Source: Candidatus Edwardsbacteria bacterium
GTDB lineage: Bacteria; Edwardsbacteria; AC1; EtOH8
Direction of reading: 5' to 3'
Assembly: GCA_018821925.1 (NCBI GenBank)
Contig: JAHJLF010000050.1
Span: forward strand, 1 to 44,914
Length of the DNA: 44,914 nucleotides
Within the stretch, counting starts at the first letter, position 1. Every line of letters begins with the position of its first letter. Position numbers and translations under genes: made by a program. The notes under the pieces were generated by a model. That model did not search any database. It saw only the letters and a list, made by a program, of their open reading frames with translations, and was not told the DNA's origin. Below, one piece after another: positions 15,412-38,755 of this stretch.

Positions 15412-15780
15412 ATGACCCAGGGATACGAACAAAGGATAAAGGAGCTGGTGGATAATATCCCGGGGGCCTTGGGCGCCAGCCTTACCGGGACCGACGGCAT
15501 CGGGATAACATTCTATCAGTCCGGGCTGGACCTGGACCCCACCCTGGCCGACGCCGAGTTTGCCACCATGCTGTCCGCCTCCCGGCGGGCGGCCGAGAGC
15601 CTCTCGCTGGGGAGTATCTCCGAGCAGACCATAGCCACCGAGAAACTGACCGTCCTGATCAAGTTGGTGGGGACGGATTTCTATCTGAGCGTGATTATGC
15701 AGCAGGGCGCCGGAAACCTGGGCATGGCCCGGCTGCTGCTGAGAAGGGCCTCCGAAGAATTCAAAAACATTTTATATTAA
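15412..15780 (+). CDS. Roadblock/LC7-like protein
   Basis: A 122-residue protein with the Roadblock/LC7 layout. A first helix (YEQRIKELVDNIPG) leads to a strand pair (ALGASLTGTDGIGITFYQSG), a long central helix (FATMLSASRRAAESLSLG), the second beta pair (LTVLIKLVGTDFYLSVIM) and a terminal helix. Prokaryotic members usually regulate small GTPases or polarity systems. A strong GGGAGGGAG ribosome site precedes the ATG. It lies 13 bases before the ATPase stalk subunit gene, which makes it the first gene of the V/A-ATPase cluster and one of three roadblock-like genes in it. Confidence 0.75.
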   Translation: MTQGYEQRIKELVDNIPGALGASLTGTDGIGITFYQSGLDLDPTLADAEFATMLSASRRAAESLSLGSISEQTIATEKLTVLIKLVGTDFYLSVIMQQGAGNLGMARLLLRRASEEFKNILY

Positions 15781-15793
15781 ACGGGAGCAGATT

Positions 15794-16147
15794 GTGTCAT
15801 CGGAAAAGCATAATGATCACCAGGATCAGGCACAACAGATAATCCGCAGCCTGGCACACAGGGAGCAGGAACTTCAGAAGAAAACGGAAGAAGCCAAAGC
15901 GGAGGCCGATGGGATAATAGAGAAGGCCAAAGCCGAGGCTTTCTCTATTATGGGCGATGCCCGTTCCCGCATAGAGGAGAGAACCCTGGTTGGCAAGAAG
16001 GATATTGCCCAAAAATCCCTCCAGCTGATCGAACAAAAGAAAAAAGAGGCCGTCGCTCAGGCCGGCCAGCTGGAGAAACAGGCCGCGGCCAAACAGGGCC
16101 AGGCCGTGGACCTGATCATCCAAAAGGTTTTTCCGGAGAACCGATAG
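15794..16147 (+). CDS. V/A-type ATPase peripheral stalk subunit G/H-like
   Basis: A 117-residue protein, almost entirely charged coiled coil (AEADGIIEKAKAEAFSIMGDA and KKKEAVAQAGQLEKQAAAKQ). This fits the G/H subunit that pairs with E in the peripheral stalk. It starts with GTG at 15794 after a CGGGAG ribosome site, and its stop is immediately followed by the subunit I start. The assignment rests on coiled-coil composition and position. Confidence 0.8.
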   Translation: MSSEKHNDHQDQAQQIIRSLAHREQELQKKTEEAKAEADGIIEKAKAEAFSIMGDARSRIEERTLVGKKDIAQKSLQLIEQKKKEAVAQAGQLEKQAAAKQGQAVDLIIQKVFPENR

Positions 16148-18088
16148 ATGATCGTTTCCATGAGCCGGGTGCTGATCGTGGGCCCGAAGATAATAAGCGC
16201 CGAGGTTATCCGCTTGCTCCATAAAATGGGCCGGCTGCATATTGCCCCGGTAAAGAATCAGGGGACACTTCATCCTGCCGTGCTGGACAGCGGGGAAGCC
16301 GACGTTAAACACACCATGGAAAGGCTGCAGCAGGAGTTGGACGGCCTGCTGACCATTCTGGAGTTTCACGGCCGCCAGGCCCAGGCGGTCATGCCAGCCG
16401 ATTGGGAAAAGCTGCTGGCCGATCTGTTGGTTCAGCGGGTCGAAATCAACCAGCTGGTCAAACAAAAGCTGGATTTTAGCGACGAGCTGGCGCTGATCGA
16501 GAACTACCGGGCGGCCTTCGAGGCCCTATCCCCGCTGATGTCAAAATTGGAGCCCAGCCGGAGGATCAAGGCCTTTGGTTTTATGGCCAAGATCCAGGAA
16601 TCGGCGGCGGTGGATGCCCTGCAAAAGGAATTGCGAAAACTGACGGAAGGGCGGGTTGAATTCTACCGCCACCAGATCGATGAGAAAAAATTAGCCGTCC
16701 TGGCGGTCTTCCATATAGACGACGAAGAAAAAATAAAAGGCTTCTTTACCAAGGCCGGGGTCAACGAGCTGAAGCTGCCCTCGGCGGTGGCCTCGCTTAA
16801 TATGGCGGAGGCGGTCAGTCAGCTTAAGGGAAAAAGCCGCCAACTGCCGGAGATGATCTCCGAAATAAGCAAAAGAATTTCGGATATCTCGCGTCAGCAG
16901 GGACCGGTGTTGGAGGCCTACCGCCTGATGGTGGGGGACGAGCTGGCCCGGCTGCAGGCCAAGGAGGAACTGCCGGAGGGGCGGTTCACCTTCTATCTTC
17001 AGGGATACCTGCCGGCCGAGGATCTGCCCGGTCTGAAAGAGATGCTGTTTAAAAAATTCGGCGACAAGGTCACGGTCCAGGTTTTAGAAATTGACCACCA
17101 CGACGCTCCCAATGTCCCGGTGATCCTGAAGAACCGCAAAATGATCAGACCCTTCGAATTGGCACTTTCCATTTTCAATCCGCCCCAATACGGCACGGTG
17201 GATCCCACCCCATTCATCGCCTTTTTCTTCCCACTGTTCTTCGGTTTCATCGTGGGCGATATCGGTTATGGTATCGTACTTTTAATCATCAGTATATTGA
17301 TGTTGGTGCAGAAAAGCAGATTTTTCTTATTCAAACCAGTTGAAATACTCTTCAAGGTAAAAGTTACAGACAACCTCGCGAAACAACTGTCAATAATTAT
17401 TTTATACTGTGCGTTCTGGACGTTTCTTTTCGGGGTAATCTACGGCGAGTTGTTCGGCGACCTGGGTGAGCATATGCACTGGATCAAACCGATGTCGGAA
17501 AAACTCAACCGGATGAGCAGCGAATCCATCATGACGCTGTTCAAAATCGCGATAATTTTCGGAGCGGTTCAGGTGTACGTCGGGTTCGGCATCATGCTTC
17601 ACACCGGCATCAAGCACCGCGACCTGCACCATATCCTGGAGCCGGTGGCCTTTGCCCTCGGGGTCCTCGGCGTTTTCGGCATGTTCTTTACCACGATGGT
17701 CAATATGCTGCCAACCTGGCTGATGTGGCCCTCCATAATCCTGACCGGAGCCAGCGCGGTGACCCTGGGGATACTGGCCGGAGTGGCCGGCCCCATCGAG
17801 ATCTTCGGGGCGGTGGGCAATATCCTGTCCTATGCCCGTCTGTTCGCCATCGGGCTGTCGGCGGCCTATCTGGCCTACGCCGCCAACCTGATAGGCCGGA
17901 CCATCGGCGGCCTGCCCGGGCTTCTGGTGGCGGCCCTGATCGTGCACCCGCTGTTCTTTGCCCTGGGCCTGATCAGCCCCATCATGCAGTCCTTCCGTCT
18001 CCAGGTGGTGGAATTTTTCACCAAGTTCAAATATCACGATTATTCCGGTAAAAAATACAAACCATTAAAAACATTAGGAGGTAAGTAA
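16148..18088 (+). CDS. ntpI: V/A-type ATPase subunit I (a-subunit)
   Basis: The membrane stator that forms the ion half-channels against the c-ring. Its 646 residues divide into a cytoplasmic half (about 1-345), with helical arms binding the E/G stalks, and a hydrophobic half with seven to eight helices. The TPFIAFFFPLFFGFIVGDIGYG segment opens the membrane part, and GNILSYARLFAIGLSAAYLAY carries the conserved arginine of the ion path. The start MIVSMSRV is typical of the family. The next gene begins directly after the stop. Confidence 0.95.
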   Translation: MIVSMSRVLIVGPKIISAEVIRLLHKMGRLHIAPVKNQGTLHPAVLDSGEADVKHTMERLQQELDGLLTILEFHGRQAQAVMPADWEKLLADLLVQRVEINQLVKQKLDFSDELALIENYRAAFEALSPLMSKLEPSRRIKAFGFMAKIQESAAVDALQKELRKLTEGRVEFYRHQIDEKKLAVLAVFHIDDEEKIKGFFTKAGVNELKLPSAVASLNMAEAVSQLKGKSRQLPEMISEISKRISDISRQQGPVLEAYRLMVGDELARLQAKEELPEGRFTFYLQGYLPAEDLPGLKEMLFKKFGDKVTVQVLEIDHHDAPNVPVILKNRKMIRPFELALSIFNPPQYGTVDPTPFIAFFFPLFFGFIVGDIGYGIVLLIISILMLVQKSRFFLFKPVEILFKVKVTDNLAKQLSIIILYCAFWTFLFGVIYGELFGDLGEHMHWIKPMSEKLNRMSSESIMTLFKIAIIFGAVQVYVGFGIMLHTGIKHRDLHHILEPVAFALGVLGVFGMFFTTMVNMLPTWLMWPSIILTGASAVTLGILAGVAGPIEIFGAVGNILSYARLFAIGLSAAYLAYAANLIGRTIGGLPGLLVAALIVHPLFFALGLISPIMQSFRLQVVEFFTKFKYHDYSGKKYKPLKTLGGK

Positions 18089-18433
18089 ATGAAAAAACTT
18101 CTGGCTATTGCCCTGTTGACCTTAGTATTGATGCCGTTGGCCACTTTGGCCCTGGCCCAGGACCACGGCGCGGCCGTTCCCGGCGAGACCACCCAGCAGC
18201 CCGCCCCGTTCTCCCAGAACATCGTGATCTGGAAGGCCCTGGGGGCCGCGTTGGCCATCGGCTTTGCCGCCTTCGCCACGGCCTGGGCCCAGAGCAAGAT
18301 CGGCGCGGCCGCGGCCGGAGCCATGGCCGAGAAGCCCGAGGTGGGCGGCTTGATGATCGTGTTGGAGGCCTTGCCCGAGACCATCATCATTCTGGGATTC
18401 GTCATCGCCATCATGATAATCGGCATGAAGTAA
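18089..18433 (+). CDS. ntpK: V/A-type ATPase subunit K (proteolipid c-subunit)
   Basis: The 114-residue proteolipid that builds the rotor ring. Residues 1-23 look like a cleavable signal peptide (LATLALA-QD). A Gln/Pro-rich stretch follows, then one helical hairpin. Helix 1 is about 48-68 and helix 2 about 86-111. The ion-binding glutamate is probably E97 in ALPETIII, a motif shared by V-type rings. It is a single-hairpin subunit, unlike the duplicated four-helix forms of many V-type operons. TTAGGAGGT is the best ribosome site in the cluster, which suits a subunit needed in many copies. Confidence 0.92.
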   Translation: MKKLLAIALLTLVLMPLATLALAQDHGAAVPGETTQQPAPFSQNIVIWKALGAALAIGFAAFATAWAQSKIGAAAAGAMAEKPEVGGLMIVLEALPETIIILGFVIAIMIIGMK

Positions 18434-18551: not shown

Positions 18552-19124
18552 ATGAATTCCGAACTGATAAAGGTCATCGAGCGGGAGGCCGAAGCCGAGC
18601 GCCAGAGGATACTGGATGCTTCGCGAAAGAATGCCGGCGAGATAATCGAGCAGGCCAAGGCCCAGGCTGCGGAGCTGGAGCAGAAGTTCCAGGCCGACAG
18701 CCAGTCTTTGGAAAGGACCGAAATGGCCAAGGCCAACAGCGCGGCCAATCTTCAGGCCATGGCCATCCTGCTGGAGGTCAAAAGCCGGATCATAGACGGG
18801 ATATTTCAGGCGGCCTACCAGAAGATCAAAAAAATGCCCCAGGAAAAATACCGGCAGGCCTTAAAGAGCATGTTGCAGGAGGCGGTGGCAGATCTGCCGG
18901 GGGAAACGGTGGTGCTGACCAGCCCGGGCGACCTGAAGATGGTACAGGAAATAGTGAAGGCCGCCAAACTGAAGGCCGAGGTGAAGCCGGACCCCCAGGT
19001 TCAGGAGGGGATCATCATGAGCGATAAAAGCGGCAGCCATTCGGTTCTCAACCGGTTCTCCGACCGGATGGAAAGGGCCCGGCCCTCACTGGTGGCCCAC
19101 ATCTCTGAAACATTGTGGGGATAA
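18552..19124 (+). CDS. ntpE: V/A-type ATPase subunit E
   Basis: A 190-residue peripheral stalk subunit. The N-terminal half is a long charged helix (EREAEAERQRILDASRKNAGE) and the C-terminal half is the globular domain that caps the A/B head (IDGIFQAAYQKI, LTSPGDLKMVQ, GIIMSDKSG). No ribosome site is visible before the ATG, unlike most genes here. Together with the hairpin upstream this would keep its synthesis below that of K. The next gene starts three bases after the stop. Confidence 0.9.
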   Translation: MNSELIKVIEREAEAERQRILDASRKNAGEIIEQAKAQAAELEQKFQADSQSLERTEMAKANSAANLQAMAILLEVKSRIIDGIFQAAYQKIKKMPQEKYRQALKSMLQEAVADLPGETVVLTSPGDLKMVQEIVKAAKLKAEVKPDPQVQEGIIMSDKSGSHSVLNRFSDRMERARPSLVAHISETLWG

Positions 19125-19127
19125 AAG

Positions 19128-20165
19128 ATGCCCAGCGATTACGGATACATCAATGCCAGGCTTAAAGGGCAGCACAGCAGACTGTTGAAACCGGGAGCCT
19201 ATGAGGAGCTGCTCGGCCTGTCCGGTTTTGATGCCTTTGCCAAGTGGCTGGCCGGCAGTTCTTATTCCAAGGAATGGCAGGAGGCCCAAACCCGCTTTGC
19301 CGGGCTGGCTGCGGCCGAGGAGGCCCTGTCGGCCAACTTCAATTCCTCGACCAGGCTGATGCGGAAGATCTCCGACGGCAGCCCCGGTAAATTGATCGGC
19401 CTCATCCTCCGGAGATGGGACCTGGAGAATGTCAAGGCGGTGATCCGGGGCATTCACCACCGCTGGGAGACGGATGAGATCTTTCGGGCGGTGCTGCCGG
19501 CCGGTAATCTGGATAAGATAAAATTGATGGAGCTGTGCCGGAAGTCCGATCTGCGTGAGTTGGCCGATACCCTGGCCACCTGGGGCGAGGAACTGGCGGT
19601 GCCCCTTACCCGGGCCATGCCCGAATACCAGAAGGAACATAAACTGGCCGGTCTGGAGCTGGCCTTGGACCAGTTCTACTATGGTCAGTCTTTGAAGGGC
19701 CTGACCGGCTTGGGCTACAACAAAAGCCTGGTCCGTGACTTTCTGCGCCGTGAGATCGACCTGTTGAATGCCAAAGCGCTACGGCGGCTGATGGCCCGGG
19801 AGAAGATCGACCTGCCGGAGGCGGCCGGGTATTATCTGCCGGGCGGCAAGCTGCTGACCAGGGAAAAATACGCGGCCCTGCTGGATCCCAAGGAATCCAA
19901 AAGAGCCCTGCGCTCCGTCAGGGGAACGCCCCTTTACCGGCTGTTGACCGCCGACGATAGCCAGGGAGGCCGGGAGGAGAAGCGAGACAAGGAGGAATGG
20001 CGGCGGAAGGCCCTGGCCTACCGGGGGGACCCGCTGGGGATCGATGTGGCGCTGGGCTTTTTGTGGCAGAAGTATTTCGAGGTGGTTAATTTGAAACTTA
20101 TCGCCCGGGGAAAGCATTTCGGGCTTCCTGCCGAGGATATCAGATATCAGCTGTTGACGGCTTAG
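19128..20165 (+). CDS. ntpC: V/A-type ATPase subunit C
   Basis: The central-shaft adaptor that links subunit D/F to the c-ring (the V-type C, or Thermus C, homologous to eukaryotic d). The 345-residue helical protein starts MPSDYGYINARLKGQHSRLL, a typical family opening. It carries the recurring IGLILRRWDLENVKAVIRG and LLNAKALRRLMA helices that mark its three-fold internal repeat, and it ends with FEVVNLKLIARGKHFGLP. It is spaced as in a normal operon behind E. Confidence 0.92.
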   Translation: MPSDYGYINARLKGQHSRLLKPGAYEELLGLSGFDAFAKWLAGSSYSKEWQEAQTRFAGLAAAEEALSANFNSSTRLMRKISDGSPGKLIGLILRRWDLENVKAVIRGIHHRWETDEIFRAVLPAGNLDKIKLMELCRKSDLRELADTLATWGEELAVPLTRAMPEYQKEHKLAGLELALDQFYYGQSLKGLTGLGYNKSLVRDFLRREIDLLNAKALRRLMAREKIDLPEAAGYYLPGGKLLTREKYAALLDPKESKRALRSVRGTPLYRLLTADDSQGGREEKRDKEEWRRKALAYRGDPLGIDVALGFLWQKYFEVVNLKLIARGKHFGLPAEDIRYQLLTA

Positions 20166-20212: not shown

Positions 20213-21385
20213 ATGAAAAAGTTATTCATGGTTCTGACGCTGGCCTGTCTGCTGTCCCCGGCCCGGGCCCTGGAGCCGCCGGTGGATGTCAAGGCGGTGG
20301 ACACTCCCAACGACGAGGGGAGCTCCATCACCGTCAGCTGGGGAAGATCGCCCCGGGACCAGGGGGATGCCACCGTCTTCAAGGGCTACCAGGTCCTGAG
20401 GGCCGAGAATGCCAAAGGGCCCTTTGCCGAGGTGGGTTTTGTCATCTGCGGCAAGAACGATTACCGCGACAATGTGGAGAGCCACAAGAACTACTATTAC
20501 CAGGTCCGAGCGGTCGCCTTCCCGGATTCTTCGGAGGCGGTAACAGTCGGGCCGGCCACCGCCACCGCCCAGTGGTTTGATCGCAGCCGGGGAAATGTGC
20601 TGATACTGACCATCATCATCTGTTTTCTGATTATCTGGTATATCGAGCGGGCCAAGAAGGGCGAAGAACTGTTCATCCGAAAGATCCAGGGGCTGGATGC
20701 CATTGACGAGGCGGTGGGCCGTTCCACCGAACTGGGCAAGCCCATTATGTTCTCCTTCGGGCTGGGCGAGATCAAGGATATCGTGACGGTGGCCGCCCTG
20801 GCCATCCTCCGTCAGGTGGCGGTGCGCTGCGCCCAGCACGGCACCGAACTGCTGGTCCCCAACTGGGACCCGCTGGTGATGGCCGCCGCCCAGGAGACGG
20901 TGCAACAGGCCTATTCCGAGCCGGGCCGGCCCGACCTCTACAAGGAGGGCAATGTCAGCTTTTTGACATCCGACCAGTTCGGCTACGCCGCCGGGGTGGA
21001 CGGGATGATGCTCCGGCAGAAACCGGGGGCGATCTTCTTCATGGGCTATTTCTACGCCGAGGCCCTGCTGATGTCCGAGACCGGCCATTCCATCGGGGCC
21101 ATCCAGATAGCCGGCACCACCGCCATCACCCAGCTGCCGTTCTTCATCGCCTCCTGCGATTACACCCTGATCGGCGAGGAGATGCTGGCGGCCTCCTGTT
21201 ATCTAAAAAAAGATCCCCAGTTGCTGGGCAGCCTCAAGGGAGAGGATTTCGTCAAGGCCTTCCTGATAATCGGGTTTGCCCTGATGGCCGTCTGGGGCAC
21301 GGCGGGATACATCCTGAACAATGCGGGAAACCCCTGGATGATGGATGTCTTCCAGGCCGTCAAAAACTGGTTCATAACCGGTTAG
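20213..21385 (+). CDS. Exported fibronectin type III / DUF6754 membrane protein
   Basis: A 390-residue protein. A signal peptide ends near residue 19 (SPARA-LE). A fibronectin type III domain (about 20-120: VDVKAVDTPNDEG...ITVSWGRS, then YQVRAVAF) is followed by a membrane helix at about 126-145. A long alpha/beta domain (about 150-340) contains KPIMFSFGLGEIKDIVT, RQVAVRCAQHGTELLVP and IQIAGTTAITQLPFF. The final helix is about 345-367. This matches DUF6754, whose function is unknown. It is the first of four consecutive membrane proteins inserted between ATPase subunits C and F. Confidence 0.8.
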   Translation: MKKLFMVLTLACLLSPARALEPPVDVKAVDTPNDEGSSITVSWGRSPRDQGDATVFKGYQVLRAENAKGPFAEVGFVICGKNDYRDNVESHKNYYYQVRAVAFPDSSEAVTVGPATATAQWFDRSRGNVLILTIIICFLIIWYIERAKKGEELFIRKIQGLDAIDEAVGRSTELGKPIMFSFGLGEIKDIVTVAALAILRQVAVRCAQHGTELLVPNWDPLVMAAAQETVQQAYSEPGRPDLYKEGNVSFLTSDQFGYAAGVDGMMLRQKPGAIFFMGYFYAEALLMSETGHSIGAIQIAGTTAITQLPFFIASCDYTLIGEEMLAASCYLKKDPQLLGSLKGEDFVKAFLIIGFALMAVWGTAGYILNNAGNPWMMDVFQAVKNWFITG

Positions 21386-21407
21386 CCGAAAGGGAAGGAG
21401 ATATAAA

Positions 21408-22040
21408 ATGAAAAAAGAGATACCTTTGGCCATAACCTTCATCACCGGGCTGATAATCATCGTCACCTTCTTCATCCCCCATCAGCCGCTGGGAACCATG
21501 CAGCAGAGGCTGTTGTTATGGTATTCCATAGTGCTGGGCTTCACCATGCTGCTGGGGATGGACAGCCTGCTGCGCAGCAACATCCAGAAGATAGTCCGCA
21601 AGGCCCCGGGCTGGCCCTTCGCCTTGGTGCTGATCATCGGTTTTTTGGGGACCATGATCGTCGGCATCTACACCTGGGCCACCAGTGAATCCCTGTTGAG
21701 CCTGGGGTCCTCCTTCATGTACGTCTATACCTATTTCATCATTCCCCTGCAGGCCACCATGTTCTCCCTGCTGGCCTTCTTCATCGCCTCGGCCGCCTAC
21801 CGGGCCTTCCGGGCCAGAACGCTGGAGGCCACGCTGCTGCTGATAACCGCTGCCATCGTGATGCTGGGCCGGGTGCCCATCGGGGCCGAGATTTGGGACA
21901 AGTTTCCGCTGATCCAGGACTGGATCATGGAGGTCCCCCAGATGGCCGCCAAGAGGGGCATCGTCATAGGCGTGGCCCTGGGGACCATAGCCATGTCCCT
22001 CCGGGTCATCCTGGGATTGGAAAGAACCTACCTTACATAA
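21408..22040 (+). CDS. Hypothetical polytopic membrane protein (ATPase-cluster module)
   Basis: A 210-residue protein with about six predicted membrane helices, roughly at 7-26, 36-54, 70-92, 100-128, 138-155 and 183-204. There is no signal peptide. Short polar loops include LRSNIQKIVRKAPG and RAFRARTLE. No catalytic motif is visible and the family is not recognised. A clean AGGGAAGGAGA ribosome site precedes the ATG. It lies 22 bases after the DUF6754 gene and 26 before the next, so it clearly belongs to the same transcript. Confidence 0.75.
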   Translation: MKKEIPLAITFITGLIIIVTFFIPHQPLGTMQQRLLLWYSIVLGFTMLLGMDSLLRSNIQKIVRKAPGWPFALVLIIGFLGTMIVGIYTWATSESLLSLGSSFMYVYTYFIIPLQATMFSLLAFFIASAAYRAFRARTLEATLLLITAAIVMLGRVPIGAEIWDKFPLIQDWIMEVPQMAAKRGIVIGVALGTIAMSLRVILGLERTYLT

Positions 22041-22066
22041 ATTAAGGTAATAAAGGAGATGGTGAA

Positions 22067-22891
22067 ATGAAATTCTTCGAAAAGATAGCCAATATAGACA
22101 GCCGGATCATCTATCTATTGCTGTTCATCGTAGTGCTGATTCCGGTGGTGTTTAAAATGGTCCTGCCGGTAAGGGTTTCCGAGCCCGTTCAGACGGCCTA
22201 TGATTCCATCGAGAAACTGCCGGAGGGTTCGGTGATACTTTTCTCGATCGATTACGACGCCTCCTCGGCGCCGGAAGTTCAACCCATGCTGTTGTCAACC
22301 CTTCGCCATGCATTTACCAAAAAGCATAAGGTGGTAATGATAGGACAATGGGCATTGGGCCTGCCGTTCGGCGAGATCGGCCTCAACGAGATCGCCCCCC
22401 AGTTCGACGCCAAATACGGGGTGGATTACGTCAATCTGGGCTACCGCCCGGGCTACCGGGCCCAGATGGTGGGGATGGGGCGGGAGATCCGCGACTTCTT
22501 CGCCAGCGATTACCGGGGCACTCCGGTCGACGATATCCCCCTGATGAAAGGCATCCATAATTACAACGACATAGACCTGCTGGTGGGCCTGGAGGCCGGG
22601 CAGGCCGGGGATGAGTGGATCCAGTTCGCCGGGGCCAGGTACGGGATTAACATCATCATCGGGGCCACCGGGGTCGTCGCCCCCGACATGTTCCACTATC
22701 TGCAGGCCAAACAGATCAAGGGCCTGATCGGCGGCCTGCAAGGGGCGGCCGAATACGAGACCCTGGTCAAGCACGCCGGGACCGGCATCGCCGGGATGGT
22801 GGCCCAGTCTTACGCCCACCTGCTGCTGTTGGGGTTCATCCTCATAGGCAATGTGGGCTATTTCGTGATCAGAAGGAGGAAACAAGCATGA
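22067..22891 (+). CDS. Hypothetical bitopic membrane protein with alpha/beta domain (ATPase-cluster module)
   Basis: A 274-residue protein. Helix about 14-35 and a second near the C-terminus (about 248-268), followed by RRRKQA, flank a soluble domain. That domain has alternating strands and helices (GSVILFSIDYDASS, HKVVMIGQWALG, INIIIGATGVVAPD, AKQIKGLIGGLQGAAEYE). The layout and some strand signatures resemble the C-terminal part of the DUF6754 protein two genes upstream. The function is unknown. GGAGATGG precedes the ATG, and the stop overlaps the start of the next gene by four bases (ATGA). Confidence 0.75.
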   Translation: MKFFEKIANIDSRIIYLLLFIVVLIPVVFKMVLPVRVSEPVQTAYDSIEKLPEGSVILFSIDYDASSAPEVQPMLLSTLRHAFTKKHKVVMIGQWALGLPFGEIGLNEIAPQFDAKYGVDYVNLGYRPGYRAQMVGMGREIRDFFASDYRGTPVDDIPLMKGIHNYNDIDLLVGLEAGQAGDEWIQFAGARYGINIIIGATGVVAPDMFHYLQAKQIKGLIGGLQGAAEYETLVKHAGTGIAGMVAQSYAHLLLLGFILIGNVGYFVIRRRKQA

Positions 22892-23499
22892 TGCAGATAA
22901 TCGGAACCTGGATAGCGGCCGGGCTGACCCTGGCCATATTCTCATTTCTCTATAAGGACAACCCCTTCTACAAGTTCGCCGAGCACCTCTATGTGGGGAT
23001 CTCGGCCGCCTACGCCATACTGTATGTCTTCTATTTCGACGTCAAGCCGCTGTTGATAGAGAAGTTCATCACCGAGCAGGGGGCCGAGCGCTGGATCTTA
23101 CTGATTCCGGCGGCCTTCGGCCTGATCATGCTGGCCCGCTGGATACCCAAGATCTCCTGGCTGTCCCGCTGGTCCATCGCCCTGACGGTGGGGATTGCCG
23201 CCGGGCTGGGCATTACCGGGCAGATCCAGGGGATCCTGCTGCCCCAGATCCGGGGCACATTGGTTCCGCTGACCTCCATAAATAACGTCATAATGGTGAT
23301 CGGGGTAATAGTCACCCTGATCTACTTCTATTTCTCAATCGCCCACAAAGGCGCCGTCAAGATCGGGTCCAGGCTGGGAATGGTCTTCATCATGGTGGCC
23401 TTCGGGGCTAGTTTTGGCTACACCGTGATGGCCCGCATCTCGCTGCTGATCGGCCGCCTGCATTTTCTGGTCTACGAATGGCTCCATCTGGTGAAGTGA
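22888..23499 (+). CDS. Hypothetical polytopic membrane protein (ATPase-cluster module)
   Basis: A 203-residue protein with about six membrane helices, approximately at 4-22, 30-49, 69-85, 92-111, 132-151 and 161-185. It has the short basic loops expected of an inner-membrane protein. It overlaps the upstream gene by four bases, so its synthesis is probably coupled. It has no recognised family or motif. It is the last of the four membrane proteins; two roadblock-like genes follow at once. Confidence 0.75.
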   Translation: MMQIIGTWIAAGLTLAIFSFLYKDNPFYKFAEHLYVGISAAYAILYVFYFDVKPLLIEKFITEQGAERWILLIPAAFGLIMLARWIPKISWLSRWSIALTVGIAAGLGITGQIQGILLPQIRGTLVPLTSINNVIMVIGVIVTLIYFYFSIAHKGAVKIGSRLGMVFIMVAFGASFGYTVMARISLLIGRLHFLVYEWLHLVK

Positions 23500-23535
23500 T
23501 GTGCCGGATCACGAAATTTTAAGGGGGACAGAACG

Positions 23536-23838
23536 ATGGAAGATCTAACCGGAATAAAAGGGGTGCTGGGCTTTGCGGTCTACGTTAGCGACAGCCAGGT
23601 GTCCGGCTCGGCCAAGGGGAAGCTGGGCGACAAGGCCTCGGAGATAGTGCAATTCTGGGTCAACGCCGCCTCGGTAATATCCAACAATCTGAACCTGGGG
23701 GAGGTCAAAGAAGTGGCGGTCGGCGGGAAGGACCGTCAGGTGCTGATGGTGATGTCCTCCGACAAGACCGTCCTGTGCGAGCTGGATCCCAAGGCCAACT
23801 GGAAGAGCATCTCCGCCGAGGTCAGGAGGAAGATGTGA
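23536..23838 (+). CDS. Roadblock-like small protein (ATPase-cluster module)
   Basis: A 100-residue protein with the strand-helix-strand order of Roadblock/LC7 domains. A strand (GVLGFAVYVSD), a helix (KASEIVQFWVNAASVISNNL), two strands (VKEVAVGG, RQVLMVMSSDKTVLCEL) and a C-terminal helix can be read. The similarity is structural in pattern rather than strong in sequence. AAGGGGGA precedes the ATG. The stop overlaps the start of the next gene by one base. Confidence 0.6.
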   Translation: MEDLTGIKGVLGFAVYVSDSQVSGSAKGKLGDKASEIVQFWVNAASVISNNLNLGEVKEVAVGGKDRQVLMVMSSDKTVLCELDPKANWKSISAEVRRKM

Positions 23839-24386
23839 TGTCGTTAAATGACGCCTTAAAATCAAAAGTGGTTGGACAGAAAGCTGCTTTCGCAATAGAT
23901 CAATCAGGCGCTTGCCAGTATCACGGGGACGAGGGGGGCATAGTACAGAGCGCCCAGTTTGCCAGGCAGATATACGATATCGTCGGGCTGTCGTCGCTGG
24001 ACACCCTGTGGGTCAGCGCCGGGAACGGAACCTTTGTCACCAGGATAACCTCCCAGGGGCAGGCCGGGTTGATACTGGACCAGAATCCGGACATACCATC
24101 GGCCATAAGTTTTTTGGACAAAGCCCTATCCTCACCGACCGACGGGCCGGCCGCCGGGACCGGGGATGTGATGGGAAAGGTGCGGAAGATAGCCACCGAA
24201 TACCTGACCGACTTCGCCGACACCGCCCTGATGATCCAGATCAAGCAGGCCGGGCTGGACGAGAAAAATCCCCAGCCGGACCAGTTAGAGAAATTAGCCG
24301 CCGGGCTGGAGAAGGCGGCCCCGATGATCATCGGCCCAGAGAAGGCCAGGGAGATGGCCGAACAGATAAGGAAAGCAATCAAATAG
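23838..24386 (+). CDS. Roadblock-like protein with helical C-terminal extension
   Basis: A product of about 182 residues. I placed the start at ATG 23838, which overlaps the upstream stop and has AGGAGG at 23824-23829; a longer frame starting inside the upstream gene is not supported. Residues 10-95 have a roadblock-like pattern (AAFAIDQSGACQYHG, AQFARQIYDIVGLSSLDTLWVSAG, TFVTRITSQGQAGLILDQ). Residues 110-182 are helical and acidic/basic (KAREMAEQIRKAIK). It lies four bases before ntpF, so it is made together with ATPase subunits. Function unknown. Confidence 0.6.
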   Translation: MSLNDALKSKVVGQKAAFAIDQSGACQYHGDEGGIVQSAQFARQIYDIVGLSSLDTLWVSAGNGTFVTRITSQGQAGLILDQNPDIPSAISFLDKALSSPTDGPAAGTGDVMGKVRKIATEYLTDFADTALMIQIKQAGLDEKNPQPDQLEKLAAGLEKAAPMIIGPEKAREMAEQIRKAIK

Positions 24387-24389
24387 AAT

Positions 24390-24713
24390 ATGGAAAGATT
24401 AGCCGTAATAACCGACCCCGGAACCGCCACCGGATTCCGGATGGCGGGCATAGAGACCCACGAGGTGGCCGACATCCACGAGATGCGCAGCAAGGTGCTG
24501 GAGCTGATGAAGAGCGACAGCTACGGCATGATAGCGGTCAACGAGGACCTGGGCGGGGACCTGGGGGATGACATCAACCGCCTGATCAAGGGCCGGGCCC
24601 TGCCGGTGATCCTGCCGTTCCCGGTTCCCAAGGGCGGGGTGGTGGAGTCGGGCGAGGCCTATCTTTCAAAATTGGTCAAGCAGGCTATCGGGTTTTACGT
24701 CAAGCTGAAATAA
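24390..24713 (+). CDS. ntpF: V/A-type ATPase subunit F
   Basis: A 107-residue central-shaft subunit that binds D within the A/B head. It has the family alpha/beta fold opening (LAVITDPGTATGFRMAGIE), then YGMIAVNEDLG and LPVILPFP, and a C-terminal helix ending KQAIGFYVKLK. No strong ribosome site is visible, so it may depend on coupling with the gene four bases upstream. After it the cluster is interrupted by AT-rich genes before subunit A. Confidence 0.9.
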   Translation: MERLAVITDPGTATGFRMAGIETHEVADIHEMRSKVLELMKSDSYGMIAVNEDLGGDLGDDINRLIKGRALPVILPFPVPKGGVVESGEAYLSKLVKQAIGFYVKLK

Positions 24714-24740: not shown

Positions 24741-25259
24741 ATGCAAGACAGTAAAAGAATTATAATATCTTTGCTGACCTTTATAGTAATGTTATTTATT
24801 ACGAAATTTAGTTTTGCTCAAAGCAATTCATGTTGTACGATGGTTGATACAAATGGTTATATTAAGCACTATCAAGAAAAGACGCTCAAACTGCATTCAG
24901 ATTTTTGGGGTAACTATCAAGTATTATTAAATGACAAACGTTACTCAACTTCAAAAATTCATGATTTAGGATATAAGTTCCCTTCTGTCATGCAAGAATA
25001 TAAAACCTATTGTCAAAAGAAAATTACAAGTTATTGTTTGATTGGTGCTGGTGTTGGGCTTTTTATCGGAGGAGCCAAACTTACACAAGTGACTGATAAA
25101 CCGACATATGCGGATATAGGCTTTTTTACTTGTATGGGTTCAATATTAGCGTCGATATATTACTATAACTCATCGTATAACAATCTCTCTAACTCAGTTT
25201 GGTTGTACAATCAGGAAATAATAAGACCAGATGTTTCAACTTGTGACTCGGTACAATAA
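24741..25259 (+). CDS. AT-rich hypothetical exported or membrane protein
   Basis: A 172-residue product with an N-terminal hydrophobic segment (LLTFIVMLFITKFSFA) that can be a signal peptide, and two further hydrophobic stretches (about 94-110 and 125-140). It contains several cysteines (CC at 32-33, then others). The base composition is much richer in A and T than the genes on both sides, and codon use follows, which suggests recent transfer into the ATPase cluster. GAGGG precedes the ATG. I do not recognise the family. Confidence 0.65.
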   Translation: MQDSKRIIISLLTFIVMLFITKFSFAQSNSCCTMVDTNGYIKHYQEKTLKLHSDFWGNYQVLLNDKRYSTSKIHDLGYKFPSVMQEYKTYCQKKITSYCLIGAGVGLFIGGAKLTQVTDKPTYADIGFFTCMGSILASIYYYNSSYNNLSNSVWLYNQEIIRPDVSTCDSVQ

Positions 25260-25300
25260 CGTTCGTTTTTATTTGTGTTAATACATCGATTTTGTTCAAA

Positions 25301-26176
25301 ATGAAAAGAATATATAGCATTGTTCTTTTAATATTATTTGCCTGTCCCGGTTTTGCCATGGTGGTTCCCGGCCTGGACCTGCTGAAGCGGGTGCTGGACA
25401 GGTTCGAGTTCATGCCGGAATACCATATGGTGGGCGACGTGATGGCCTTCGCCAATCACAAGGATATCGAATACCGCCGGCGATATTTCATCGAGACCAA
25501 TTCCGACCTGGAGTTCGTGTTCTTCTCCTACCGCGGCCTGATTTACTCCGACTGGTTCCTGTACATGAAGACCGGAATGGGGCGCCAGGACGGGGCGGTG
25601 ATCTTTGATCCCCGGGATGTCCGTTACGGCATCACTCCTTCGCTGGAGATCCGGCTGAAACGGGCCAACCTCAGGGCCGGACTGGAGCACTTCTGCTTTC
25701 ACGACATCGACCGGAACGACGGGGTCACCGAATACTGGAACAAGGAGTTCCTGGAGGTATTCTCCAAGAACTACCGCCTGGGGGAATACCGTCGTCGCTT
25801 GATAGGGGAGAACAGCTGGGCCCCAGGCAACCGGTTTTCAAACAACACCCGGCTGGGGTTGTACATCAAAAGGGCTTTCGGGTTGCTGCCGGAGGCGGTG
25901 CTGGGCGGAGGGCATAACTACCGCTGGGAGCTGACCCAGGAGAACCGCTGGGCTTTTTTCCGGAGCCACGACTGGATGGTCAATATTAAAAGCTTGGCCA
26001 ATGCCAATGTGCGGCGGGACGGCCGTGTCCTGCAGACATACGTCCTGGGGCTGGAGGGGCACTTCCGGCGCGGGGCCGGCGGGTCGATGCTGTTCCTTAA
26101 TTACAACCTCCTGGATCAGCTGGAGGTCCGGCCCAAGGATAAGTTGCTGGAGGCCGGGATAAGGTTTTATAATTGA
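25301..26176 (+). CDS. Hypothetical outer-membrane beta-barrel-like protein
   Basis: A product of about 291 residues. The signal peptide (YSIVLLILFACPGFA) is coded by AT-rich DNA, while the rest is GC-rich. The mature part has alternating aromatic and polar residues typical of barrel strands (LEFVFFSYRGLIYSDWFLYMKTG, PSLEIRLKRANLRAGLEHF, SMLFLNYNLLDQLEV) and ends IRFYN, an aromatic-rich end as in outer-membrane proteins. No ribosome site is seen before ATG 25301. It may be a porin-like or DUF-family protein; a function cannot be given. Confidence 0.6.
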   Translation: MKRIYSIVLLILFACPGFAMVVPGLDLLKRVLDRFEFMPEYHMVGDVMAFANHKDIEYRRRYFIETNSDLEFVFFSYRGLIYSDWFLYMKTGMGRQDGAVIFDPRDVRYGITPSLEIRLKRANLRAGLEHFCFHDIDRNDGVTEYWNKEFLEVFSKNYRLGEYRRRLIGENSWAPGNRFSNNTRLGLYIKRAFGLLPEAVLGGGHNYRWELTQENRWAFFRSHDWMVNIKSLANANVRRDGRVLQTYVLGLEGHFRRGAGGSMLFLNYNLLDQLEVRPKDKLLEAGIRFYN

Positions 26177-26237
26177 ACGTCGATCGTCAGGGTTTTTCTG
26201 GAAAAGGTTAGTTTTACTAATTACCAAGGGAGAACAA

Positions 26238-26699
26238 GTGAAAGGAATCAACGCGGTTGTTTTGCCCACGATAACCATTATTTCTTTATGTTTTCTGGGG
26301 TGCAGCAAAAAAACAACCGAACCGGAATTGATCCCGGAAGTTACAATAACTTCTTTGACAGACACGTTGTGCATTTCTTACGGTAGTTGTATGCTAAATT
26401 CTACCCTGATCTATCAGGCGGTTAATTACTCAAGCATTAAATCCGGTTCTGATTCCGATAAGGTGGATATTTTTTTGAGTAGTAATAAGAAACTTTCCAG
26501 TCCGGGCAATGGAGGTGGGTGTAAATCTGTGGAAACTAGTGTTAATACTGCGAAGATAACCACAACTGATACTTGGCTGCCCGATACAATTAGCACAGGT
26601 TTGGAAATATCAGATACATTGTCTGCCATTGACAGTTCTGTTGTGCTGATTTCTTGGTGGTACAATGGCAAACGATATCAAATGGTCAAAAAGTATTAA
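26238..26699 (+). CDS. Hypothetical lipoprotein
   Basis: A 153-residue protein starting with GTG after AAGGGAGA. The signal ends in a good lipobox (CFLGC), followed by SKKTTEPE, so it is an outer- or inner-membrane-anchored lipoprotein. The mature domain is Ser/Thr-rich and beta-like, with several cysteines (CISYGSC, GGGCKS) that could form disulphides. It is moderately AT-rich and lies between unrelated genes within the ATPase cluster. No family recognised. Confidence 0.6.
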   Translation: MKGINAVVLPTITIISLCFLGCSKKTTEPELIPEVTITSLTDTLCISYGSCMLNSTLIYQAVNYSSIKSGSDSDKVDIFLSSNKKLSSPGNGGGCKSVETSVNTAKITTTDTWLPDTISTGLEISDTLSAIDSSVVLISWWYNGKRYQMVKKY

Positions 26700-26784: not shown

Positions 26785-28527
<1,743 letters not shown>

Positions 28528-28673: not shown

Positions 28674-29588
28674 ATGCGTCTGGTAACACGTTCCGATTTC
28701 GACGGATTGATCTGCGGCGTCCTGTTAAAGGAGGCCGGCATCATCGACAATATTCTGTTCGTCCATCCCAAGGACGTTCAGGACGGCAAGGTCGAGGTCA
28801 CGGCCGATGACGTGCTGGCCAACGTGCCCTATGCCAAGGGCTGCGGGATGTGGTTCGACCATCACATGTCCGAGCTGGAACGCAAGGCTTTTCCGGCCGA
28901 TTACAAGGGCTGGTCCAGCCCGGAGAAAAGCTGCGCCCGGGTGATCTACAAGCACTACAATGGGGCCGAAAAATTCCCCCGCTTCACCGAGATGATGACC
29001 GCAGTGGACAAGTCCGACTCCGGCGATCTGACCATCGAGGAGGTGGCCGAGCCCCGGGGCTGGCTGCTGCTGGCGGTAGTGATGGATCCCCGCACCGGCC
29101 TGGGCCGCTACAGCGACTACCGCATCAGCAATATGCAGTTGATGCAGGACCTGATGGAATCCTGCCGGACCATGCCCATAGATGAGATCCTGGAGCAGCC
29201 GGACGTCGTAGAACGGGTCAAGCGCTATCACGAATCGGAGTGGATGTACAAGGAGATGATCAAGAGCCACTCCCAGGTGGAGGACAAGGTGCTGGTGGTG
29301 GACCTGCGCCAGATGGAAGAGATCCCCAGCGGCAACCGTTTCGTGGAATACGGCATGTTCCCCAATATCAACATCTCCATTCGGGTGATGTGGGGCCTCA
29401 AGAAGCAGAACGTGGTGTTTGCGGTGGGCCACAGCATCATCAACCGGAGCTCCCAGACCAAGGTGGGCTCGCTGATGCTGAAGTACGGCGGTGGCGGCCA
29501 CGACAAGGTGGGGACCTGCCAGGTGCCGACCGAGAAGGCCGAGGAGGTGCTGGCCGAGCTGGTGAAGCAGATCAAAGCCGACGGGTAA
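28674..29588 (+). CDS. DHH-family phosphoesterase (exopolyphosphatase-like)
   Basis: A 304-residue DHH/DHHA1 enzyme. Metal-binding aspartates are in SDFDG (D8, D10) and the signature FDHH (D62-H64), followed by DKSDSGD (D112, D115, D118). The C-terminal DHHA1 substrate domain has the GGGGHDKVGTC motif. Family members hydrolyse oligoribonucleotides, c-di-nucleotides, pAp or short polyphosphate, and this sequence is close to those annotated as exopolyphosphatase. Which substrate applies cannot be read from sequence. It lies between the ATPase A and B genes; a link to phosphate energy metabolism is possible. Confidence 0.85.
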   Translation: MRLVTRSDFDGLICGVLLKEAGIIDNILFVHPKDVQDGKVEVTADDVLANVPYAKGCGMWFDHHMSELERKAFPADYKGWSSPEKSCARVIYKHYNGAEKFPRFTEMMTAVDKSDSGDLTIEEVAEPRGWLLLAVVMDPRTGLGRYSDYRISNMQLMQDLMESCRTMPIDEILEQPDVVERVKRYHESEWMYKEMIKSHSQVEDKVLVVDLRQMEEIPSGNRFVEYGMFPNINISIRVMWGLKKQNVVFAVGHSIINRSSQTKVGSLMLKYGGGGHDKVGTCQVPTEKAEEVLAELVKQIKADG

Positions 29589-30585: not shown

Positions 30586-31998
30586 ATGGACTTAACCACC
30601 AAGAAATACCAGAGCATTTCCTACATCTCCGGGCCGTTGCTGTTCGTGGACAACGCCAAGGGGCTGTCATACGGGTCTATCGTGGAGATAGAACTCCCCG
30701 ACGGCAGCAAAAAGGGCGGGCAGACCATCGAGGTCTCGGAGAAATACGCCGTCATCCAGGTGTTCGAGGAGACCCGGGGGCTGGACCTGGCCAAAAGCTC
30801 GGTCAGCTTAAAGGAGGATGTGGCCCGGATCCCGGTGTCGCGCGACATGATCGGCCGGCGCTTCAACGGGCTGGGCGAGCCCATAGACGGCCTGCCGCCC
30901 ATCATCCCCGAGAAACGGCTGGAGATCATCGGACAACCCATGAACCCCACCTCCCGGGCCAAGCCCGAGGAGTTCATCCAGACCGGCATCTCCACCATCG
31001 ACGGCTTTGCCACCCTGGTGCGGGGCCAGAAACTGCCCATCTTCTCCGGAGCCGGACTGCCGGCCAACGAGATCGCCGCCCAGATCGTCAAGCAGGCCAA
31101 GGTGCTGGGGACCACGGAGGAGTTCGCGGTGGTGTTCGCCGCCATGGGCATCACCTCGCGCGAGGCGGCCTTCTTCATCAACGAGTTCGAGGAATCGGGC
31201 GCCCTGGCCAAGACGGTGGTCTTCATGAACAAGGCCGACGACCCCACCATCGAGCGCATTCTGACCCCGCGCTGCGCCCTGACCTGCGCCGAGCATCTGG
31301 CCTACGACCACGGCATGCAGGTGCTGGTCATTTTAACCGACATGACCAACTACTGCGAGGCCCTGCGCGAGGTGGGCACCGCCCGCGAGGAGATCCCCGG
31401 ACGGCGGGGCTATCCGGGATACATGTACACCGACCTGGCCCAGATCTACGAGCGGGCCGGCCGGATCCACGGGCGCAAAGGCTCCATCACCCAGATCCCC
31501 ATTTTGACCATGCCGGACGATGACATCACCCATCCCATCGCCGACCTGACCGGATATATCACCGAGGGCCAGCTGGTGCTGTCCCGCCAGCTGCACCGCA
31601 TCGGCTGTTACCCGCCCATCGATCCCCTGCCCTCGCTGTCCCGCTTGATGAACAACGGCATCGGCGAGGGGCACACCCGCAAGGACCACCGGGAGTGGGC
31701 CAACCAGTTATACGCCGCCTATGCCTCGGGCCGCGACCTGCGCAAGCTGGTGGCCATCATCGGCGAGGAGGCCCTCACCGAGATCGACCGCAAGTACCTC
31801 AAGTTCGCCGAGGGCTTCGAGAAGGTGATGATCAATCAGGGACAGACTGACCGTAGCATCGAAGAGACATTGCAGATCGGCTGGGACCTGATGTCCGATC
31901 TGCCGGCCAAGGAGCTCAAGCGCATCAGCAAGGACCATATCCACAAGTATTACCACGGCGAGACCATGGAGCAGATGTACGGCAAAGAAGAGCGGTAG
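30586..31998 (+). CDS. ntpB: V/A-type ATPase regulatory subunit B
   Basis: The non-catalytic head subunit, 470 residues. It opens [19 protein letters not shown]. The nucleotide-domain P-loop is replaced by the SGAGLPANE segment, as expected for B. It carries [14 protein letters not shown] and the arginine-rich [15 protein letters not shown] segment near the catalytic interface. The C-terminal helical domain ends ...[20 protein letters not shown] precedes the ATG. It lies downstream of the GIY-YIG gene. Confidence 0.97.
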
Positions 31999-32033: not shown

Positions 32034-32906
32034 ATGATAAAGCGGCATTCTTTATACAATCACGCAGGTCTTTATTTCTTTACTATTTTACTACTCAGTA
32101 CTACAGCGCTATGCGAAACCATTGACGTTACCATCAAGGGTCTGGACGACGGCAAAAAAACCAGCCGCCAGCAGGATTACAAGGAGGCGGTGCTGGATGC
32201 CAAGCGCCAGGCCATCGAACAGGCGGGGGTGACGGTGGAATCGAAGTCCACCGTCAGGAACGCAGTGCTCCAGGAGGATTTCATAGAGTCCAATGCCAAG
32301 GCGGTCCTGCTGCCGGGATTCCAGATCATGGACATCGGCTACATGCAGGACGGCACCTATCAGATAGTGCTCACTGGCAAGGTCCAGGTCCAGCCCAAAC
32401 AATCGATGGCCGAAGCCGACAGCGGGGCTTTGCTTCTGCTGATGAACATCTACAGCGTGCCGGTGACCTTCCAGCTGGACGGCAAGCCTCTGGACGCCGC
32501 CGGGAAATTCGCCGCCTTGGTCGCGATGAAGGATAGTTTGGATTTTTCCGTCCTGTCCAATATCAGGGAAGTGAAAAAACGTTACAATAACCTGCCGAAG
32601 TATTTCCTTTATTTGCTGAAGCTTCCGGCCGGCCGGCACAGCATCAGGATCACAGCGCAAGTCATCTCCGGCACCGGCCCCGATAAGAACGGCAATTTCG
32701 TGGACGCCGAGATAATCCCCGGCCAGGCTACTTTCTACGAATACCGGGCCGATCCGGAATACAATTTTATCCTGGCCGACAGCGGGTTTGTGTTTGAAAA
32801 ACTGGCGGCAAATAAAAAGCCGGCCGATACCACAGGCGCATACGGGCGCAAGCTGCGTCTGGACATGATTGCCCAATACCAGAAAATCACCGGCTTTAAA
32901 TTCTAA
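32034..32906 (+). CDS. Exported protein with LPP20/FlgT-N-like domain
   Basis: A 290-residue protein with a signal peptide (FFTILLLSTTALC). Residues about 45-120 (KEAVLDAKRQAIEQAGVTVES, then QIMDIGYMQDGTYQIVLTGKV) have the strand-helix-strand layout of LPP20 or FlgT N-terminal domains, found in envelope proteins. The rest is a beta-rich domain of unknown type, with HSIRITAQVISGTGP near residue 205. GGAGAGGT precedes the ATG. It separates ATPase subunits B and D. Function unknown. Confidence 0.7.
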   Translation: MIKRHSLYNHAGLYFFTILLLSTTALCETIDVTIKGLDDGKKTSRQQDYKEAVLDAKRQAIEQAGVTVESKSTVRNAVLQEDFIESNAKAVLLPGFQIMDIGYMQDGTYQIVLTGKVQVQPKQSMAEADSGALLLLMNIYSVPVTFQLDGKPLDAAGKFAALVAMKDSLDFSVLSNIREVKKRYNNLPKYFLYLLKLPAGRHSIRITAQVISGTGPDKNGNFVDAEIIPGQATFYEYRADPEYNFILADSGFVFEKLAANKKPADTTGAYGRKLRLDMIAQYQKITGFKF

Positions 32907-33087: not shown

Positions 33088-33711
33088 ATGGAAAACGTAT
33101 CACCAACCAGGATGAACCTGTTGGCCCGCAAGGCCCAGGTATCTTTGGCCAAACAGGGGGTGGACCTGCTGAAGAAGAAACGCGATGCCTTGGTGTCGGA
33201 ATTCTTTGGGGTGGTCCGGAACACCCTGGAATCGCGCAACAAGCTCAATGCGGTGTCCCAGGAGGCCGTCAACCAGCTTAATATTTCGGCCTCCATAGAG
33301 GGCAAGCCCCTGCTGGAATCGGTGGCTTTGGCCGGAAAGCGCCAGGTGATGCTGGAGGTGGCCGAGAAGAACGTCTGGGGCATCAAGATCCCCGAGGTCT
33401 CCACCGCCCGCAGCTTGAAACGGGATCCCTTCGAACGGGGATACAACGCCGCTATCGCTCCGGGCCGGGTGATAAAGACCGCTGATAATTTCGAGGAGAT
33501 GATAGACCTGCTGGTGGAGGTGGCCGGGCGGGAGACCCGCCTTAAAAAACTGGGCCAGGAGATAAAGAAAACCACCCGCCGGGTCAACGCCCTGGAACAG
33601 ATCGTGATTCCCCGGCTGTACCGCCAGATGGCCTACATTAAAAGCGTTCTGGAGCAGAGGGAGAGGGAGGACATATTCCGACTAAAACTGATAAAGAACA
33701 AAGGCGAATGA
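33088..33711 (+). CDS. ntpD: V/A-type ATPase subunit D
   Basis: The central rotor shaft, analogous to F-type gamma. The 207-residue protein has the family opening VSPTRMNLLARKAQVSLAKQ and the C-terminal coiled coil with RRVNALEQIVIPRLYRQMAY. It lacks a visible ribosome site, but its stop overlaps the next start by four bases (ATGA). It is the last ATPase subunit in the window and completes the A-B-C-D-E-F-G-I-K set. Confidence 0.95.
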   Translation: MENVSPTRMNLLARKAQVSLAKQGVDLLKKKRDALVSEFFGVVRNTLESRNKLNAVSQEAVNQLNISASIEGKPLLESVALAGKRQVMLEVAEKNVWGIKIPEVSTARSLKRDPFERGYNAAIAPGRVIKTADNFEEMIDLLVEVAGRETRLKKLGQEIKKTTRRVNALEQIVIPRLYRQMAYIKSVLEQREREDIFRLKLIKNKGE

Positions 33712-37144: not shown

Positions 37145-37176
37145 AAACAATTAACTCATATTATTTGAAATGGCTT

Positions 37177-38709: not shown

Positions 38710-38755
38710 CAAATAAACTATTACGAAATCAATTTACAATTTAAAGGAGCTTGTT

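Follow-up and report, generated by a model that had tools for sequence, protein, structure and literature searches.

A DUF6754 membrane-protein cassette in the V/A-ATPase operon of Candidatus Edwardsbacteria and its relatives away from ATPase genes

The eukaryotic Ragulator is associated with the V-ATPase. Ragulator (LAMTOR) is a scaffold of eukaryotic lysosomes (PMC5696360), and MglC and MglB are roadblock/LC7 proteins of the Myxococcus polarity system (PMC7949163). Here we describe a locus that recalls both, found in a stretch of 44,914 nucleotides from Candidatus Edwardsbacteria (GenBank assembly GCA_018821925.1, contig JAHJLF010000050.1, positions 1 to 44,914 of the forward strand), further referred to as the window. 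Six genes at positions 20213–24386 are located inside a V/A-ATPase operon, in the slot between the genes of subunits C and F. Four of them encode membrane proteins and are denoted as genes A, B, C and D (together, ABCD or the cassette); the remaining two are denoted as R1 and R2, and a further gene, R0, heads the operon. The likeness to Ragulator consists in the presence of roadblock-type proteins next to a V-type ATPase and is an analogy only, not membership, and implies no kinship with p18, the Rag GTPases or other parts of Ragulator. R0 is clearly related in sequence to MglC, but it sits in an ATPase operon; R1 is weakly similar to the Myxococcus proteins, and R2 not detectably.

A profile search of public genomes yielded at least 523 relatives, and the best 80 loci were examined with flanks of up to 10 kb, many of them cut by contig ends. 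These loci come from WOR-3, Stahlbacteria, Zixibacteria, Latescibacterota, Poribacteria, Eisenbacteria, Coatesbacteria, Fermentibacteria, Gemmatimonadetes and other lineages. The A-B-C-D order is fixed across them, with more than 110 homologues of each gene, well beyond what chance would give; the cassettes often stand in tandem, arrays of two to four being common, and in other lineages they occupy many unrelated neighbourhoods. In a broad, non-random set of 290 genomes, mostly drafts, a DUF6754 gene was found in 83 genomes from 71 genera; the p-values given below for this set ignore shared ancestry. Four copies of ABCD were found in the genome from which the window was taken. Besides the copy in the ATPase operon, these are two in tandem on contig 77 and a single one on contig 72, all three located away from ATPase genes. 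ABCD is a strict four-gene cassette and a separate, undescribed membrane system. No described system of such composition was found among the families, solved structures and papers searched.

Two observations concern the other copies of this genome. In the contig-72 cassette a frame break interrupts gene B (L006, 10342–11003), which is intact in the relatives L127 and L128. The tandem cassettes of contig 77 (L005, 5990–17055) lie within an apparent sarcosine/proline-dehydrogenase-type operon encoding 2Fe2S, FAD and ferredoxin proteins, and the same layout was seen in L019 and L027.

An earlier note on the window, made from the sequence alone, had proposed that the six genes encode a conserved accessory complex that anchors, regulates or senses the rotary ATPase. 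Outside the phylum this proposal failed. V-ATPase genes were found near the cassette in none of the 80 best loci; most relatives outside the phylum keep the block apart from ATPase genes, the outcome that the earlier note had named as contrary to its proposal. At the genome level, V-ATPase (ATP-synt_D) outside the own family was detected in 23 of the 73 cassette genomes vs 85 of 207 others (Fisher p 0.16), and 50 of the 73 cassette genomes outside the phylum had no V-ATPase match. In genomes with both, the listed cassette and V-ATPase places either fall on separate contigs or are divided by over 100 kb; in some of these (e.g. G067 and G226) not all cassette places are listed, and the distance there was judged only in part. 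In V-ATPase operons of other phyla subunit C is followed directly by subunit F where both were recognised, and ABCD, R1, R2 and R0 are absent from these operons, including those of the cassette-bearing genomes G143, G111, G145 and G067. Because of the neighbourhoods of the 80 loci, the location of three of the four own copies elsewhere, the C–F adjacency in other phyla and the lack of genome-level co-occurrence, we conclude that ABCD is not a V/A-ATPase part in general. Hence, a dedicated role in anchoring, regulating or sensing rotary V/A-ATPases in general is very improbable, even though every readable Edwardsbacteria genome has the cassette within the operon and roadblock proteins by a V-type ATPase recall Ragulator. 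What stood of the proposal is the linkage within Edwardsbacteria, which is phylum-wide.

The own genome and nine relatives (G000–G009; four genera) were compared. They make up the only family of their group among the genomes analysed, and L027 and L059, which are close to them in the trees, are named Candidatus Edwardsbacteria. Both flanks of the slot are readable in nine genomes, the contig of G008 ending at the end of subunit C, and in each of the nine the slot holds a cassette. It is accompanied by R1 and R2 in G000–G005 and G007, and stands without them in the other two, G006 and G009. The slot cassettes of these two genomes are not orthologous to that of the window: they group with the contig-72-type cassettes of G000, G001, G002 and G004 (SH-aLRT 100), and a single clade of slot cassettes was rejected by the approximately unbiased (AU) test (p 2.4e-36). 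The contig-72 site, further called the c0 site after one of its genes, has the order c3-MutL-c0-[ABCD]-TPR-LplA-DUF4388-R1'-R2'-S1-S2 and is syntenic in all ten genomes, with the TPR gene missing in some. A cassette is present there in four genomes and in none of the other six. Thus the c0 site lost its cassette repeatedly, while the ATPase slot was never seen empty and switched cassette lineage. Since the slot is always filled, even by another lineage, while the c0 site empties, selection for some ABCD in the ATPase operon accounts best for both the slot occupancy and the lineage change. Occupancy throughout the phylum would fit a lineage-specific functional link to the ATPase. A recent insertion, which the earlier note had also set aside, is not supported, given that the guanine-cytosine (GC) content of the block (0.56–0.60) is like that of the ATPase genes upstream (0.54–0.60) and that every genome of the phylum in which the site is readable has kept the block.

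The c0 gene encodes a protein of approximately 375 amino acids (aa) with a barrel-type N-terminus and weak similarity to RnfC_N and lipoyl domains; it has no usable sequence match in the PDB and no name in NCBIfam. Outside the phylum, 69 of the 73 genomes with a cassette have c0, vs none of the 207 genomes that lack one (p 2e-61). In at least 30 non-family genomes c0 is within about 6 kb of the cassette, often preceded by MutL, and in paralogues c0-like domains are fused to MutL. The closest described proteins here are the GlmL/MutL accessory proteins of B12-dependent mutases (NF040745, PF13941): the c0 locus encodes a member of the MutL family (PF13941, E 3e-125), which scores below the equivalog cut-off of GlmL (NF040745; 226.6 of 475 bits). 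As judged from these sequence comparisons, c0 would be a near-obligate soluble partner of ABCD, usually encoded beside a MutL/GlmL-type ASKHA ATPase. Proteins of about 950–1015 aa with a MutL-family N-terminus and a c0-like C-terminus were also seen in L225, L226, L227 and L228, the one from L226 having in addition an N-terminal helix-turn-helix domain.

We consider it moderately probable that ABCD together with c0 and MutL forms an undescribed, widespread membrane complex, one paralogue of which was recruited by Edwardsbacteria to the rotary ATPase. A different explanation, for which we would reserve a sizeable but minor share of belief, is that the ancestor of Edwardsbacteria acquired the cassette in an ATPase operon that tolerates insertions, and that it has been inherited there ever since, sharing no more than the promoter and doing its ordinary work independently of the ATPase. 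The many unrelated neighbourhoods of the cassette elsewhere, its presence at the redox-enzyme-like locus of the own genome, the further non-ATPase genes in the ATPase operon of the window and the lack of V-ATPase co-occurrence outside the phylum all agree with such a passenger. On the other hand, the slot is never empty (9/9) despite repeated cassette loss at the c0 site, and descent alone would not lead one to expect that in one genus this junction holds a cassette from a different lineage. The exchange itself may have another origin: if the slot once held the window-type and the contig-72-type cassettes in tandem and the genera lost different ones, differential loss would replace relocation. 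This is the main alternative for the origin of the swap and is compatible with recruitment as well as with a passenger. Arrays of two to four cassettes are indeed common; however, the contig-72-type cassette is also found at the c0 site in genera g1 and g2, in the context most widespread in other phyla, and no genome was seen with both types in the slot. We regard the tandem ancestor as possible but somewhat unlikely.

Several points weigh against the reading of ABCD as a recruited membrane complex. R1 and R2 are absent from the slot in genus g4. Contact with the ATPase is hypothetical, and the operon may just tolerate passengers, given the other unrelated genes lodged in it. Neither the alpha/beta domain of protein A nor that of C had an informative match in the fold search. 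Finally, the genomes are for the most part draft assemblies from metagenomes, and the sample of 290 lacks phylogenetic independence.

The layout of the six genes in the window, called from open reading frames, agrees with the earlier description of a tightly packed, co-directional block in positions, order, strand and overlaps. All genes of the operon are on the + strand, in the order R0-G-I-K-E-C, then A-B-C-D-R1-R2, then F, with subunits A, B and D farther on. Genes C and D overlap by ATGA at 22888–22891, and the R1/R2 junction is TGATG, with a one-base overlap at 23838. The four membrane proteins, one of them with fibronectin and DUF6754 domains, were also recovered. Gene A (20213..21385, +) encodes a protein of 390 aa with a signal peptide, an FN3 domain, a transmembrane (TM) segment, an alpha/beta DUF6754 domain and a C-terminal TM segment. 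It matches the whole DUF6754 domain (PF20539, 358.5 bits vs the cut-off of 27, E 2e-107, profile positions 2–243 of 257), a family without described function, whereas B, C, D and c0 fit no family found. The AlphaFold2 model of A (pLDDT 93) places FN3 at 24–116, the first TM segment at 124–148, followed by the alpha/beta domain, and the second TM segment at 335–370; the FN3 domain matches PDB entries. In other taxa (L137, L187), gene A may contain several FN3-like repeats, as judged by eye from the sequence.

Gene B (21408..22040, +; 210 aa) and gene D (22888..23499, +; 203 aa) encode membrane proteins that are polytopic by hydropathy. Their alignments contain conserved residues R132, R135, R183 and R206 in B, and N25, E32, R84, Q120, K154, R183 and R190 in D. 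Gene C (22067..22891, +; 274 aa) encodes a bitopic protein, in the AlphaFold2 model of which (pLDDT 95) a six-stranded alpha/beta domain is flanked by two TM segments; E70, D120, D148, Q216 and E231 are conserved, as well as the intramembrane H251 and N262. According to the positive-inside rule, the DUF6754 domain of A is probably cytoplasmic, and the alpha/beta domain of C, probably periplasmic.

No Pfam family reached its curated cut-off for protein B, C or D, and PDB sequence searches gave no usable match for them, C having no sequence relative in the PDB; the NCBIfam scan gave no name for A–D, R1 or R2. In the fold search, strong matches of A were obtained via the FN3 domain only, and no listed match of C exceeded the TM-score of 0.4 normalised to its own length. 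A match of A to Nir2 (LNS2) was not used (rmsd 27 Å), nor were the matches of C to eIF2B-alpha (rmsd 4.5–4.9 Å, TM-score 0.31). Mutual duplication was considered for both pairs of proteins and rejected: the models of A and C share the order of elements, but the hhalign probability of 2% indicates no relation, and it equals 0.3% for B and D. The literature search for DUF6754 returned no paper, and the one on Edwardsbacteria ATPases found nothing.

Under the explanation that we prefer, B and D would form the polytopic core of a four-protein inner-membrane complex. The FN3 domain of A would face outward and its alpha/beta domain the cytoplasm, with the alpha/beta domain of C in the periplasm. The complex, whose conserved polar residues lie in part in membrane segments, would be served by c0 and the MutL-type ATPase. 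One copy, with the adaptor-like R1-R2 pair, would have been recruited between subunits C and F and retained there in Edwardsbacteria. Made together with the rotary ATPase, the slot cassette could act on it or beside it as a membrane-anchored platform, with the soluble R1, R2 and R0 mediating positioning, assembly or regulation of the ATPase. A bolder version, by analogy, would have ABCD, c0 and the MutL-type ASKHA ATPase as an ATP-linked membrane machine of many phyla, docked in Edwardsbacteria on the V/A-ATPase via R0, R1 and R2, and a counterpart in logic to the Ragulator–V-ATPase platform; we consider this quite unlikely.

The five-part set of ABCD and c0 is nearly all-or-none, occurs in about a quarter of the broad genome sample and has no described function, and it marks a sizeable gap in the knowledge of the bacterial cell envelope. 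The Edwardsbacteria ATPase operon, always with one cassette even when the lineage differs, provides a testable handle, and the link to c0 and MutL supplies soluble partners for pull-downs.

The earlier note had listed two roadblock-like proteins in the block. R1 (23536..23838, +; 100 aa) is a borderline case, weakly roadblock/LC7-like: its best solved relative is 7f8m (E 0.0085), and the Robl_LC7 score is 15.5 bits vs the cut-off of 23 (E 0.014). For R2 (23838..24386, +; 182 aa), a soluble protein paired with R1, the assignment is not supported: there is no roadblock protein among its profile matches to solved proteins, and no Pfam family; its homologues are found in L008 (E 2.8e-10), L036 and L016. 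R0 (15412..15780, +), which was not in that list, matches MglC (7ct3) with E 5.3e-18, scores 22.6 bits against Robl_LC7, just below the same cut-off of 23, and is present in all readable Edwardsbacteria ATPase operons. By these matches, the secure roadblock protein of the operon is R0, not R1 or R2. Homologues of R1 stand beside DUF4388 and R2-like genes at another locus of the own genome and in WOR-3. Strong R2 matches outside the phylum were found only in G039, G111, G186 and G250, all of which have the cassette, with R2 on contigs other than those of the listed cassettes. Elsewhere in the own genome, roadblock genes are paired with small-GTPase-like genes.

The neighbourhood in WOR-3 allows for one more interpretation, namely that ABCD is the inner-membrane part of a secretion or energy-transduction system, ExbB/ExbD/TonB-like or type-IX-like, from which a paralogue was borrowed for the ATPase operon. 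In six WOR-3/Stahlbacteria loci (L008, L016, L020, L034, L036, L066) the order is ABCD-DUF4388-R1-R2-S1-S2-ExbB-ExbD-TonB, with a plug-type outer-membrane protein; S1 and S2 are small membrane proteins, there are usually two ExbD genes, and the L008 cassette is a near relative of that in the window. In the own genome, genes of a Por_Secre_tail protein and a PorV-like protein come after the R1'/R2' locus, with no ExbB or ExbD seen in 20 kb downstream, and most loci lack such neighbours. Por_Secre_tail is commoner in cassette genomes (46 of 73 vs 60 of 207, p 6e-7), this comparison being confounded by phylogeny, and it is missing from 27 of the 73 at the threshold used; because of shared ancestry, we keep the association as a weak lead. 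Compared with the ExbB/ExbD/TonB motor and that of the type IX secretion system (GldL/GldM), ABCD-R1-R2 adjoins the former in WOR-3, but B, C and D have no match to those families in Pfam or PDB scans. On balance this interpretation is unlikely.

The rest of the ATPase operon was annotated as follows, all on the + strand. Upstream of the block are the genes of subunits G/H (15794..16147, PF16999, E 4e-15), I (16148..18088, by position and homology to subunit I of other operons), K (18089..18433, PF00137, E 1e-16), E (18552..19124) and C, the left flank of the slot (19128..20165), the last two by position and homology. Subunit F (24390..24713, PF01990, E 2e-16) forms the right flank; subunits A (26785..28527, by homology to subunit A of other operons), B (30586..31998, PF00006, E 1e-80) and D (33088..33711, PF01813, E 6e-49) follow. 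Past subunit F the GC content goes down to 0.47–0.51 at 24.0–27.0 kb. The stretches that separate subunits F, A, B and D hold other non-ATPase genes (24741–26699, 28674–29588 and 32034–32906), with lower GC content in those after F, and some extra operon genes are kept in relatives, e.g. homologues of the 25292 protein. Subunit K has ALPET in the final helix and a glutamine in the helix before, residues which may indicate a sodium-binding rotor ring.

Contig C47 of the own genome (G000:C47:28818-29363) encodes another subunit D of a V-type ATPase, which is more divergent, and thus the genome probably carries two V-type ATPases; there is no DUF6754 copy on this contig. Finally, two adjoining genes at 37165–40279 of the window resemble aromatic amino acid (histidine-type) ammonia-lyases, as judged by sequence alone.

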